Assembly (NCBI GenBank): GCA_035765895.1
Contig: DASTWL010000004.1
Location: forward strand, 1-38,377
Direction of reading: 5' to 3'
Length of the DNA: 38,377 bases
Source of the DNA: Verrucomicrobiia bacterium
GTDB lineage: Bacteria; Verrucomicrobiota; Verrucomicrobiia; Limisphaerales; DSYF01
Each line of letters begins with the position of its first letter. Positions within the stretch are counted from its first letter, which is position 1. The notes beneath the pieces are model-generated. The model was not told the DNA's origin and did not search any database. It saw only the letters and a list, made by a program, of their open reading frames with translations. The position numbers and the translations under genes were made by a program. Shown piece by piece: positions 808-11,798 of the stretch.

Positions 808-1704
808 AATAGATGATTTTATTGAAGCCAGTTAATGTAAAACATTGTAAAGCGTCGTGGAATAAACCGGGGCTCCATGATTTGTAGAAAGCAATGCCAT
901 GTCCGCATTGATCGTGTTGATGTAGTTGGCCAGCGGAGTGGCCGACTCACCATTATGAGCAGGACCGACAAGAACGGCTTCATTGTTGATGATGGCCCAC
1001 ATTGGGTCGGATGAATCGCCGCCATACCAGCCAAAGTAGTAATTCGTGCTATCGGGAGGGTTCGTGTAATCGCCGAAGTTGATCCCCGCAGTCGTCACCC
1101 CGCCGATTCCAGATGAAGCGGTAGTAAATGTGGTGCCGACACGGTGTCGGCACACGAAAGACAAATCATTTCCTGAACACGAAACCAACGGCATTGCCTC
1201 TGCAAAACGCGGGAAATCTTCGGCAAATAAAATGACATCAAAATCAGTATCAGTATGAAGCGGCGGCTGGTATTCGCTTACCTGCTCAACAACTGTATTG
1301 GTGAAGTAGGTTCCGTCCGGATTAAACTAAACCATCTTTTGCCCCGGCGCAAAAAAGCTACCGACGTGGCCCGCTGTTATGGCATGCCTCGGGGAAATCG
1401 GGGTGCAAACGTAGGCGGCAGTGTTGACGTTCGTCATGTTGGTAAACGTCCGTCCCAGCGCGGCAACCGAACACAGGTAAATGTTCGTTACGTCCCGCAA
1501 CCAGAAGTTCGTTTGCAGGATCGGCAGGTTGGTTCCTCCCCATGTATTGTTAAATGGGCCTTCCGGATCGCCCCCTGCGTCATACGGTGGCAGATCAAAA
1601 TATGCACTGCTCACGGACGCGTTGGTGCGGCTGGTGAGCATGTGCAGCATGTTGTCCACCAGCGATTCTGCTTTGCCCGGATAACGCAGATAGGGTGAGA
1701 ACAC

Positions 1705-2512
1705 CGCAGCCAAGGTGTGGTCGCCGCCCGCCGCAATCAGCTTCACGGTGTGCAGGGTCGCGGGCACATCGCACTGCCCGGCGCTGTTATCGCCCCATGC
1801 CTCAATGCTTCCGTCCTCGCGCAACGCCACGCTGTGCCCGGTTCCACCCGCAATCGCCATCGCGTTGGTGAGCGTCGCCGGCACATTGGTTTGCCCGTGG
1901 TCGTTCAGACCCCACGCCACCACCGTGCCGTCCGCCTTGATCGCCAGGCTGTGCATCCGCCCCGCCGCCACCGCCACCACGTTGCTCAGTCCCGTGGGAA
2001 CATTGGCTTGCCCCTCGGAGTCCCAGCCCCACGCCACCACGGTGCCATCGTTCCGCAGTGCCAGACTATGCAACAAGCCGGCGGCAACCGCCGTCACGTT
2101 GGTTAAATTGGCAGGAATATTCAACTCGCCATAGGTATTGTCGCCCCACACTTGGATCGTGCCATTGGTGAGCAAGGCCACGTTGTGGAACCAGCCCGCT
2201 GCCACGGCCTTCACGCCGGCCAGATTCGCCGGCACCGGCTCGCTCACGGCCGGATTCAGCGCCCGGCCCCAAACCGTCACCGTCCCGTCACCACGCACGG
2301 CAAGGCTGTGTTCGTTGCCCGCCGCCACCGCGACCGCGTTGGTCAGGTCGGCGGGGACATCCGCCCAATCGTAACCCCATTGTGTTACGCTGCCGTCTTC
2401 ACGCACCGCAACGGAGTGAAACTCGCCCGCCGCAATCGCAATGGCGTTGGTCAAGTCCAGCGGATACTCGCTCTCCCCGTCATCATCGGCACCCCAAGCC
2501 ACCGCCGAGCCA
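1705..2512 (-). repeat. Second block of seven RCC1-like coding repeats
   Basis: A second run of seven RCC1-like units lies between the second Ig-like domain and the protease domain. Typical units read AAGLLHSLALRNDGTVVAWG. Units here are shorter and more regular than in the first block, with 'NVPA/T.LTN' linkers. It probably forms a second complete seven-bladed propeller next to the protease. Confidence 0.8.
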
Positions 2513-3074
2513 TCGGCAAAAGAGGGCTCATAGTGAACCACCCATGTCCCCGCCTGGTTCGTCCCGGCGGCGTTCCAAACCTTCACCGAATATTCGCCGT
2601 CCACCGGATTGGTCTGCCACAAAGGCGTGGCGTTCGTGGGCACAACCGAATAATTCGTGTAGGTGGCATCGGCAATGGCCGCGCCATCCTTGAACCACTG
2701 ATACTGGAGGGGGAATTGCGCGGTGCCGTTGGCCGAAGCCGAAACAGACATCGGAAACCAAGTCGTAAAGGTGTAGCTGCCCGGCTGCGGCGTGACGGAG
2801 TCAATGGTGGGCGCCTCAAGCAACGTTAATGTGGCGTTGGTTGTCATTACCGAGCCCGCACCGGTCGAGATGAGCGCGCGGTAATTGCCGATATCATTTG
2901 AGGAGACGTTGGACAAGGTAAGCTGCGCGTTGGTCTCGCCGGACAGATTCACGCCGTTAAACTGCCATTGGTAATGCACTCCCGCCAGTCCGATGCCTGC
3001 GGCCGTAAATTGGGCCGTCGCCCCCGGCGCGGCGAATTGATCTGTTGGCTGGGTCAGGGTCAGTGGCGTCAACC

Positions 3075-3897
3075 GGCCCGTGCGAATGGCCAAGGCATGA
3101 TTATCGCCTGATCCAATCGCTACAATCTGTCCTTGTGCATCTGTGTATGGAAAATCAGCCAAGTCTCCCCACACGACGACTGAGCCATCGGACTGTAATG
3201 CCGTGCTGTGATAACCACCCGCTGAGACGGCCACCACGTTGGACAGCCCGGTCGGAACCATCGCCTGTCCGTAATTGAACAGGGAGCCACTGTTTGTCCA
3301 CCCTGCGCCCCACGCGACCACTGTGCCATCGGCCCGCAATGCCAGCGTGTGGCCTCCACCCGCCGCCACCGTCGTCACATTGCTCAACCCCGCCGGAACG
3401 TTGGTAACATTCCATCCAACGTAGCCATTGTTACCCCAAACCCTAACCGTCCCGTCCTGAAGCAGCGCCACAGCGTGCTCCCAACCTGCGGCTACCGCTT
3501 TAGCCGCCGGCAAACCAGTGGGCACATTGCATTGGCCATAATTGTTTGTCCCCCACGCGGTGACCGTGCCATCCGTTCGCAATGCCAAAGTAAACCCATC
3601 ACCAGCAGCGGCCATGATCGCGTTGGTTAAATCAACGGGCACAGGGCCATTCGTCGTGCCCCACACTGCCACTGTGCCGTTGCTTCGAACGGCAACCGCT
3701 TGTTCCCATTTCGCAGACAACTGCCTGATATCTGTAGTCCCAGCCAAGACATTCGTCGAACTCCCCCACGAAGTCACCGTGCCGTCATTATGCAAAACTA
3801 AAGAAAAATCAAAACCGCCGGCCACCGCCGCCGCGCCCAGCAAAGACGTCGGCACCGCCAGTTGGCCGCCATGATTCACTCCCCACGCTAATACCAT
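3075..3897 (-). repeat. First block of seven RCC1-like coding repeats
   Basis: Seven consecutive units of roughly 35-50 residues share the pattern A(A/G)G..H..AL..DGTV..WG, the RCC1 (regulator of chromosome condensation) signature. RCC1 forms a seven-bladed propeller, so seven units fit one complete propeller. The DNA repeats are diverged, which argues against a recent duplication. Confidence 0.8.
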
Positions 3898-6032
3898 CCT
3901 GTCGCTTGGATTGCTGCCATTGGTGTATTCCTGCCAGTTTGTCAGCCAGTCACCGTCGGGGTCGTCGGCTGCCGTCGCGTCCAGATTGCCGAAGTATTGC
4001 CGCTCCCATGCGTCCGGCAGGCCATCCGCATCTCCGTCGAGGCTGATGCCATAAGAGCCGTTCCAGCCAATCAGGCCGCTATACTTGAAGGTCAGACTGA
4101 TCGCGGTCTGGCCCGCCACCCCCAAAGTGCTGGCGGGCGCCTGCAACCGTCCGCTCGCGGGCACATCTCCCATCGAGGTTCCATAATCGGGATAGTCCGC
4201 CACCGGATTGCCCCAGTAACAGTGATAGTTGGGGTAATTGTCATTCCAGGAGACATCAACGGCACTCAAATAGGAATAAGCGGGCAAAAGGGCGTTGAGA
4301 ACAGCATCCAGGAACAGCACTTCGTCGGTGCCCACCGCAAAAGAATCCACCGTCGTGGTGAACGAGTTGACATCCTCCGTTCCCGCCTCGCCGGACAGAA
4401 TGGTGGCGCAGTTGTTGAACGTGACGTAGGCCGGATTCCATTCGACGGTCGAGCCGCCGCCGTCCTGATAAACACAGGCCAGGCAGTTGCTGAACTGGCT
4501 GTCGTAAAGGTTCACACTCAATTCGCCCGCGCCGGCCTGGCAGATGCCGGCATTGCAATTCTCAAACCGCCAGCCCGACAGGTAGATCGAGTTGTCGCCG
4601 GAAAGACTCAACGCGGCGTCCAGATAGGAACATTTTCCACCCCCAGACACATAACCCAAGCCCCCATCGCCCACCACCAGCCCGGTGCCGGCGGCAATGC
4701 CTGGATTTCCGGTGCTGCCGCTGATGACCTCCCCGACCGAATCATCATCCTGGCTGGTGAATACAATCGGCTCGCCGTAGCCGCCCCCATTAAAACTGCC
4801 GGTGATCAGCCGACCGGGACCGGATGAACCCCCGTCCGCAAACTTGACGACAACCCCGGATTCGTAATTGACCGTGTCAAAATAAACACCCCCCGCAACC
4901 AGGTAGGTGCCTTCCGTCAGCGTGATCGCGCTGTCACTGTCCACGATCACGTAATCCAACACGTAGCCCGGCTGGGTGGCGAGGTCCGCCCGGGCCAGTT
5001 GAATGGGTGCCTGGATTGCCGCCTGCGCCAGACGCACCGGCGGCAGCGGCAGCGTCGGTGATACCCGGTGCAAAATCGAATCGGCCGAGGCCATCCGGTT
5101 TGTGGCGCCCGGACTTGCCCGCAACTGCTCCAGTTGCGTTCGCACCCGGCGATAGGGCAGTCCCTCAGTCAAGAATACCCGCCCCGCCTGATGCTCCCAA
5201 ATTTTGTAAACGGGTGTCTCGCCTACCCGGTCCCGGAATGCAGCGTTGTTGGTCAGACCGCGCGCCACGCCGTTGGTGAGCACGAACGCCCGACCCCGCA
5301 CCATCTTCATCGCGCCGAATTTCAGCGTGCGGTCCGTCAAATTGTCCTGCCGGTTCGTCGTGACCGCCTCCGCCTCCGGATCCGAAGTGTCGAAAAACTC
5401 CGTCCATAACTGCAAACGCGCGGTGTCGGCATTCAGTCCCGGATAGTCCTCCGGCGGCGGCGGGGCCGCCCGGAACACCAAATCGGCTTCCAGTCCGCTC
5501 CGCCGGTAGGTCACCAAAAGATCGGCCGAGCAGCCCTCGAAAGCATTCGTGTAAATGACTTGATTGCCGGAGGGCAGCAGCAGGCCGACGGAGTTGGTCA
5601 ACCGGCCGATCAACACGTTGTTCGTGCCGTCATAATAACTGATGCCCAGGGACGGCTCTTCAAATGCCGGCCATCCGGAGTGACCAGTTCAATCACGCCC
5701 TCGTGAATGTCGCTGGGAAAATAAACCTTGTGCTGGCCCTGCACCGCCGCCGCGCCGCCGGCTGGGAGAATTGTAATCCCCTCTTTCGATTCCTGGAGCT
5801 GACCTTGTGCGTTGGTGAAGTATAAACCGCTGCACAACTCCACATACGCGCGGTTGGTGACCAACATCACCTGACCATTGGCGTTGGTCTGCGCCACCAC
5901 CTTCTGCCAGACCCGGTGGTTCAGCCCGCGTTCGCCAATTACGTAACGAGCGGATTGTGCTTCAGAATGATTGAATGAGAACGCCGCGACCAGAACACAA
6001 GCCGCCCACCGCACCGCCTGCGAACCTTTCAT

Positions 6033-6355
6033 AAGCTGGGCCTGGTTTGTTTTTCAACCGAAGTCTGCGTGGTTGACAAAGCGTTTCCTATGCCGGTCGC
6101 GCGAAAACTGCCAACCGCAGGTTGGCCTTTTCTGCCCGTTTTTTGCCCAGATATATCGCAGTTCCACCCCACCCCTGGCGAATTCTCCGGGGACAACCAG
6201 CCAGTGGGCAATCGGCAATGCAAATGTCAAAAAGACCAACCCAAACGCGCCATGCCCCCTCTACTGGCCACCAAGCGATCCGGCGGGTTTACACAAAAAA
6301 CGTGAATGCTTTGGCGCTTTGTGTAGTCTTAATCCCCGAAACAACAAATCACCTC
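6033..6355. other. Intergenic region between divergent genes (323 bases)
   Basis: No convincing gene was seen here. It must hold the promoters for the broken protease gene (leftward) and the thuA-like operon (rightward). The one clear structure is a perfect inverted repeat, CCAACC-GCA-GGTTGG, at 6111-6125, which could be a small operator or chance. A TTGACA at 6073-6078 has no matching -10 box at normal spacing, so no promoter is claimed. Confidence 0.5.
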
Positions 6356-9426: not shown

Positions 9427-10983
9427 CTACTGCAGCGCCAGCACCACCACCGACTTGGGCGGCAGCGAAGCAGCAAAGCCCTGCCCGGAGAGTCTGGCTC
9501 CGTCGAAATCAGCGGGGTTCACCGCCTCCGGCTGCTCAAAGGTGTTGTGCGCATTCATCGTGGCCGCGGTGAGCACGCGCCCGGTGACCGTCGTGGCCTT
9601 CAGCCCCTCGACGTTGCAGGTCACGTCCGCGGCGGCGTTCGGATTCAAGTTGCACAGCGTCACGTGCACCACGCCCGCCCGGTCGCGCGACGCGGAAACG
9701 CTCACGGACGGAATTTTCTCCCCGCCGAGTTCGTAGTCGGCGCAATGCAGTTCCGTCGGCAGCAACGTCGCGTCCTGGTGCACGGCATACATCTCGAAGA
9801 CGTGATACGTCGGCGTCACAATCATCTTTTCCTTGTCGGTCAGGATCATGGCCTGAAGCACGTTCACCATCTGCGCGATGTTCGCCATTTTTACGCGGTC
9901 GGCGTGCCGGTTGAAAATGTTGAGCGTCACACCGGCCACGAGGGCATCGCGCAGCGAGTTCTGCTGGTAGAGGAAACCGGGATTCGAGCCCGGCTCGACG
10001 TCATACCACGCGCCCCACTCATCCACGATCAGGCCGATGCGCTTGCCGGGATCAGTCTGGTCCATGATGGCGCTGTGGCGCTGGATCAGGTCGTCCATCT
10101 CCAGACAGCGGCGCAGCGTGGAAAACCACTGCGATTCGGCAAACGCCGTGGCCGAACCCTTGTGGCCCCAGTTGCCGGTGGGCAGCGTGTAGTAATGCAG
10201 CGACAGCCCGTTCATGCCGCGGCCGACGTTCTTCATGAGCACTTCCGTCCAGTGATAATCCGCCGCATTCGCGCCGCAGGCGATGCGGTAGAGCGGATTC
10301 TGGCCGTCGTAGTTTTTCACGAACGTGTTGTAGCGGCGGAAATTGTCGGCGTAGAACTCGGGCGTCATGTTGCCGCCGCAGCCCCAGCTCTCGTTGCCCA
10401 CGCCGAAGAACCTCACCTTCCACGGCTTTTCCCGGCCGTTCTGCCGGCGCAAATTGGCCATCGGTGAACTGGCGTCGCTCGTCAGGTATTCCACCCACTC
10501 CATCATCTCCTGCACCGAACCGCTGCCGACGTTGCCGCAGATGTAGGCATCGCAGCCCACCTGCTCGCAGAGGTCCATGAACTCGTGCGTGCCGAAATGG
10601 TTGTTCTCCACCACGCCGCCCCAGTGCGAGTTGTAGATGGACGGCCGCTTTTCGCGCGGCCCGATGCCGTCCTTCCAGTGATACTCGTCGGCGAAACACC
10701 CGCCCGGCCACCGCAGCACGGGCACGTGCAGCTTTTTCAGCGCGGCCACCACGTCGTTGCGGATGCCGCGCGTGTTGGGAATCGGACTGTCCTCGCCGAC
10801 CCAGATGCCCTCGTAGATGCAGCGGCCGAGATGTTCGGAAAACTGCCCGTAAATGTTCCGGCTGATTTGCGCGCCGGGTTGATCGGCTTCGAGCGTGAGC
10901 GTGGCGGTGTTGGATTGGGCCGGGGCGGAGGCAACCATCAGCAACGAGGCTGCAACGACACAGAGAAGGGATGGAGTTTTCAT
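9427..10983 (-). CDS. Exported alpha-L-arabinofuranosidase, GH51 family (short form)
   Basis: The 518-residue product has a signal peptide (residues 1 to about 22, ending SAPAQS) and a compact two-domain GH51 layout: a catalytic TIM barrel, then a C-terminal beta-sandwich. Family motifs include [19 protein letters not shown] near the start and [15 protein letters not shown]. The acid/base Glu is in [11 protein letters not shown] (about residue 197) and the nucleophile Glu in [10 protein letters not shown] (about residue 321). It should remove terminal L-arabinofuranosyl residues from arabinan, arabinoxylan or arabino-oligosaccharides. It is last in the arabinose operon, 110 bases after araD, and ends at a shared terminator. 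The frame extends 39 codons further upstream into araD, but the ATG at 10983 starts the signal peptide. Export means arabinose is released outside the cytoplasm, matching the symporter and mutarotase in the divergent operon. Confidence 0.94.
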
Positions 10984-11093
10984 AAAGCGTGCCTGGTTGA
11001 CAATTGCCGGAACAAGGTCCGGGGAATTGGGGTCCAGGGAATGCGGCCAGGTTTTGTCTTCATTCTCCTGATCTTGATTTCCCTGACAATTAT

Positions 11094-11798
11094 TTAACAC
11101 CCGGGCTGACCGTAATACGCGCCGGGACCGTGTTTGCGGTTCCAGTGCTTTTTCAAAATATGCGCCGGCAAGGACTCTGCCTTCGGATTCAGCAGCAACA
11201 TTTCAAACGCCATCTGGGCGCAGGCTTCGAGCGCGATGGAGTTGTCCAGCGCCTTCTGCGGCGTCTTGCCCCACGTGAACGGCGCGTGGCCGTGCAGCAA
11301 CACGCCCGGCACGTCGTCCGGATTGAGGCCGCGTTGCTTGAAACATGCCTCGACGACCACGCCGGTGTTCGCTTCGTAACCGGTGTCGATCTCGGCTTGG
11401 GTCAGCAAGCGCGCGCATGGCACCGTGCCGCCGAAATGATCCGCGTGTGTGGTGCCGTAGCAGGGCAGTTCGCGCCCCGCCTGCGCCCACGCCGTCGCGT
11501 GCCGCGAGTGTGTATGCACCACGCCGCCAATATTCGGGAACGCGCGGTAGAAATGCAGATGTGTCGGCGTGTCCGAGGACGGACGCGCCTTGCCCTCGAT
11601 GACTTTGCCATCGGCGATGTTCAGCACGACGATGTCTTCGGGCGTGAGTTTGGCATAATCCACGCCGCTGGGCTTGATGGCCATGACGCCCGCCTGGCGG
11701 TCCACGCCGCTGACGTTGCCCCACGTGAGAATGACCAGCCCGGAATCAACCAGCGCCTTGTTGACCCGGCAGACTTCCGCTTTCAGTTCGTCAAACAT
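11094..11798 (-). CDS. araD: L-ribulose-5-phosphate 4-epimerase
   Basis: This 234-residue protein is close in length and sequence to Escherichia coli AraD (231 residues). It interconverts L-ribulose 5-phosphate and D-xylulose 5-phosphate, the last step of L-arabinose catabolism, by a zinc-dependent retro-aldol mechanism. Visible features are [10 protein letters not shown] (phosphate loop, about 25-34), [10 protein letters not shown] (about 42-51), [15 protein letters not shown] (about 74-88), the metal ligands in [10 protein letters not shown] (about 95-104), the HADHFGG segment and the later zinc His in [10 protein letters not shown] (about 168-177). Class II aldolases of the fuculose type share the fold, but the HADHFGG and HGHAPFTWG stretches point to AraD. 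It lies between araB (77-base gap containing a palindromic repeat) and the short arabinofuranosidase. No Shine-Dalgarno motif is visible. The protein is cytoplasmic. Confidence 0.96.

Follow-up and report, generated by a model that had tools for sequence, protein, structure and literature searches.

The closest described systems to the gene analysed here are the chymotrypsin/trypsin-like serine proteases of the S1 family (PA clan) and the bacterial pseudogenes that arise through nonsense mutations and frameshifts. With the S1 proteases, the C-terminal domain encoded by this gene shares the His-Asp-Ser order and the AxxH-like, D and GDS motifs, although its family does not match any Pfam or NCBIfam protease model and has a strongly conserved SPRH sequence before the predicted catalytic His. 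The gene also encodes RCC1 repeats that exceed the curated Pfam cut-offs (293 bits for PF13540 and 266 bits for PF25390). Bacterial pseudogenes (for example PMC522871, PMC2916853) present a stop or frameshift that is disabling in comparison with intact homologues while the remainder is well preserved, as expected of a young pseudogene, and the present gene shows no notable difference from them, except that its only paralogue is broken too. The gene is located in a window of 38,377 nucleotides (the whole stretch of DNA that was analysed) from a Verrucomicrobiia bacterium, and we consider it probable, with good confidence, that it is a recent pseudogene, in which a lineage-specific trypsin-like protease without a Pfam model, fused to RCC1 and Ig-like domains, has been disabled by a frameshift near position 5650 and by a nonsense mutation that replaced a conserved aromatic residue.

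The gene (832-6032, minus strand) is best explained as once having specified a secreted protein some 1,730 residues long. This would have begun with a signal peptide and an N-terminal domain that is common among Limisphaerales (Verrucomicrobiota), continued with two sets of RCC1 repeats on either side of an Ig-like domain, and ended in a trypsin-like serine protease. At present it is read as two open frames on the minus strand. The first (5610-6032) has an ATG start, a signal-peptide-like N-terminus and the first 127 or so codons of the N-terminal domain; according to tblastn of homologues, true homology stops at about 5649-5652, after which the frame closes out of register. The second (1330-5651) contains the rest of the N-terminal domain, the RCC1 repeats, the Ig-like domain, the further set of RCC1 repeats and the protease up to the TAG, with Pfam matches to RCC1_2 (E 8.4e-90) and Ig_3 (E 1.3e-5). 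An RCC1-like propeller (1705-2343, minus strand; PF25390, residues 1092-1304) is located directly before the protease domain. This second frame starts at a GTG at 5616, without a signal peptide, and the signal-peptide-like start at 6032 belongs to another frame.

The second frame ends with GHVGSFFAPGQKMV-TAG, the stop (1327-1329, minus strand) standing immediately after SFFAPGQKMV. Beyond it, the same frame continues as FNPDGTYF through 164 sense codons to a TAA at 832-834 (minus strand), the natural end of the protein, which in the alignment coincides with the ends of homologues; the 165 further open codons that the preliminary description had counted after GQKMV are thus these 164 and the TAA. 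A rough estimate from the local base composition gives a probability of about or below 1e-3 for an open stretch of 164 codons by chance, and the question is settled by homology to intact proteins of other genomes, because of which the downstream part is assigned to the same domain. Intact homologues from other genomes of the order Limisphaerales read straight across the site, with Trp at this position in the three closest (L020, L021 and L042) and Phe in the other 15 shown, and none of the homologues in the alignment has a stop there. The alignment to intact homologues, which had been proposed together with the first description of the stop, therefore gives Trp or Phe at the TAG and no protein that ends at this point. 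It also fits the guess of a TGG to TAG change, given the Trp of the closest homologues, and the view that the TAG interrupts a trypsin-like protease after the His and before the Asp and Ser is upheld by the frame and by homology across both halves.

The assignment as a protease was at first made from motifs, because neither half matches a Pfam family meaningfully. No Pfam or NCBIfam protease model matched any of 18 family members, and a sequence search of the PDB, including a profile search, returned no credible relative. When 320 genomes of this order were searched, residues 24-254 of the domain read through the TAG aligned to intact proteins with E-values of 5.9e-21 (L020) and 9.3e-21 (L021), and tblastn aligned the two halves in a single frame for many further homologues; identity over the domain to the three closest is 31-39%. 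Residues S106-H109 (SPRH), H115, D156, G231 and S233 are invariant in the 18 sequences of the family alignment (A1). The N-terminal half of the domain (1330-1602, minus strand), supported by this alignment, contains the invariant SPRH and His, with the predicted catalytic His within ISPRHAITAGHV (codon 1366-1368), and the C-terminal half (835-1326, minus strand), supported by the alignment, the models and the fold comparison described below, contains the predicted Asp (1243-1245) and the predicted Ser (1012-1014, in GGDSSDP). GGDSSDP had been named as the Ser region from the start, and its Ser is indeed invariant; the FDVIL proposed for Asp marks the right region but not the right residue, the invariant Asp being the D two residues before that of FDVIL (TDFDVIL). 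The His-Asp-Ser order was found in the 18 homologues, with a GDS motif in all but L029, which has GTS instead.

Two AlphaFold models of the domain are of low confidence (mean pLDDT 45 and 52). Foldseek searches with both of these low-confidence models nevertheless returned PDB lists made up almost wholly of S1 chains, and VIA-align of a low-confidence model against trypsins gave a Z of about 10 over residues 59-253, with 149-152 residues aligned at an rmsd of about 4. The residue replaced by the TAG is position 107 of the low-confidence model, inside a predicted strand (104-108). The models thus suggest that the protease domain likely has a trypsin-like (chymotrypsin) fold and that the TAG falls inside it.

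This sequence family (alignment A1; loci L020-L045 and L110-L120) was found here solely in Limisphaerales; a scan of the collection used a narrower alignment, which reached the larger subfamily only. Its members carry SPRH followed by His, then Asp and mostly GDS, and occur alone or fused to Ig-like domains. The intact stand-alone secreted proteins L020 and L021 and the Ig-fused L022 and L028 have the same domain with the same triad residues as the window gene, but their frames are open, with Trp or Phe where the window has TAG. An Ig-fused homologue in another genome (L044; G024, contig C13, about 1421-1459) has a frameshift that separates its Asp part from its Ser part and constitutes a third broken copy. 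The family without a Pfam model is a modest by-product of the analysis, and its intact members could be expressed and assayed.

An open frame with conserved triad residues downstream of a stop is what would be expected if the TAG were read through, in a programmed or leaky manner (by a suppressor tRNA or recoding), to give a little full-length protease. We regard this as very improbable. The 46 tRNAs that were found cover all 20 amino acids, and the anticodon CUA is not among them (the genome is 96% complete, so a tRNA could have been missed); TAG, moreover, ends neighbouring genes, for example the PEP-CTERM gene (94-807, stop at 94-96) and an alpha-L-arabinofuranosidase gene (9427-11100, stop at 9427-9429); the same two observations sustain the earlier opinion that a reassigned code is unlikely. 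The stop is conserved in no homologue, and the base that follows it is T (U in the message), a +4 U having been reported to reduce read-through in E. coli (PMC5289835). There is no ATG, GTG or TTG in the same frame between the TAG and 1194, so that a restart after the stop could yield a fragment with the Ser but without the Asp. Finally, read-through at 1327 would be of no help because the gene is already out of frame from 5650.

This second lesion is a frameshift at 5644-5653 (minus strand), about 1,440 codons upstream of the TAG, where the window is a net one base short in comparison with homologues, in a short C run. The protein of the only paralogue in the genome, on contig C61, matches the window in two pieces that lie in different frames (residues 33-135 at 5655-5963 and residues 137-389 at 4855-5652), and the homologues that cover both sides of the site (8 of 8) are continuous themselves and all match the window with a break there. 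The two-piece match and the eight continuous homologues therefore place a frameshift near 5650, which closes translation after about 140 codons; a codon-usage path switches frame at 5664/5670. The statement that everything was intact apart from one codon consequently does not hold. Of the three causes that had been offered for the TAG (a recent nonsense mutation, an error in the sequence or read-through), the first has the strongest support, as the Trp of the closest homologues fits it, but it is not the sole defect of the gene. The best explanation of the data is that either lesion alone, frameshift or TAG, abolishes the complete protease.

The C61 paralogue (L003, 2964-8506) is 67-77% identical to the window gene (about 70% identity in DNA). 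Its frame breaks in a run of seven Gs (L003 4128-4134), where it is one base short in comparison with eight continuous homologues. This tract is a plausible slippage site, and in principle the C61 gene could be switched on and off there. A broader reading, in which a trypsin-fold family without Pfam or NCBIfam models, alone or fused to giant secreted RCC1/Ig proteins, has been lost repeatedly (two copies here and one in G024), perhaps with on/off switching by homopolymer slippage, seems to us improbable. Protease homology in C61 reaches as far as GHVGSFFQPGQ, some three codons short of where the window gene has its TAG, and runs directly into a segment of 74 bp that is 96% identical to an intergenic segment of the window upstream of the gene (6269-6342, minus strand). 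From its sequence, the junction resembles a scar left by deletion or recombination; the genome yielded no trace of the lost protease half. The 74-bp segment was considered as a dispersed repeat, which was rejected, there being two copies only, and a recombination junction at the window TAG itself, sought as a break in composition, was also rejected: a dip in GC3 at 1263-1113 recovers, with no clean step.

The loss of homology in C61 so near to the TAG, with cuts only a few codons apart in the two paralogues, is what would be expected if the truncated protein were the working form, selection having dropped the protease and kept the RCC1/Ig part. This possibility is nonetheless a very slight one, since the frameshifts far upstream in both copies mean that the translated product no longer includes the RCC1/Ig part, and since the open downstream half indicates a young TAG in the window and hence independent cuts. 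In a simple neutral simulation (0.05 indels per substitution), 492 bases were still open with a probability of 0.14 at 5% divergence and 0.02 at 10%; set against the DNA difference of about 30% between the paralogues, these low probabilities indicate that the TAG is young relative to their split. As the TAG thus arose well after the duplication, the truncations of the window gene and of C61 are taken as separate events, and their position within a few codons of each other may be due to chance. A contig scan with the protease domain found no relative, and the 58 nearest relatives have no match to this domain, so that no close strain dates the TAG.

The part downstream of the TAG retains a coding-like codon pattern, which fits a very young lesion and equally an error. 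An assembly or consensus error, in which the gene would be intact and the TAG (perhaps also the frameshift) would be a wrong base call or a mixture with a minor strain in a metagenome-assembled genome (MAG), is unlikely, although it is the likeliest of the alternatives. The TAG is a departure of one codon within a domain whose other parts are well preserved, the assembly is split into 96 contigs, and the relatives of this genome in public collections are Limisphaerales MAGs. The gain or loss of one base in a run of C or G is a typical sequencing error, and both frameshifts, in the window and in C61, are one base short in such runs. On the other hand, errors would be expected anywhere, yet when about 95 kb on five contigs were scanned coarsely by codon usage, all within-gene frame breaks fell in the window/C61 pair, the C61 truncation is a rearrangement and not a base error, and the other long genes of the genome are open. 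The other giant RCC1/Ig genes are open for 1,711-2,806 codons or have normal ends. Frame switches in C14 (L046, 11.1-12.9 kb) were rejected as further lesions, being a row of separate small genes, and in-frame stops were rejected as a general trait of giant genes, the ends in C14, C15, C33 and C89 being ordinary C-termini. Decay fits the clustering of lesions in two related genes better than random error does, with the reservation that the numbers are small and that the window was picked for its lesion.

Sequence comparison establishes both lesions, the preservation of the rest of the gene and the twofold damage to its only paralogue; from this we infer that the lesions exist in the cell and that the gene is non-functional. 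The gene thus has disabling lesions in comparison with intact homologues, more than one of them, and both copies in the genome are decayed. Because of the second lesion and the doubly broken paralogue, it is regarded as an ordinary decaying pseudogene, and not as a gene one codon away from function and perhaps read through. The frameshift probably came first and would have relaxed selection on the remaining sequence, after which the TAG would have appeared. The window gene is most likely an ordinary, recently decayed gene. It matters mainly for annotation: when its paralogue and the other parts of the gene are taken into account, a tempting candidate for read-through is explained by ordinary decay.

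A stretch of 111 bp around the start of the window gene (5959-6069) also has a copy, 86% identical, at L003 2636-2746, upstream of the C61 paralogue and outside the paralogue's own start, which suggests a past duplication and deletion in C61.
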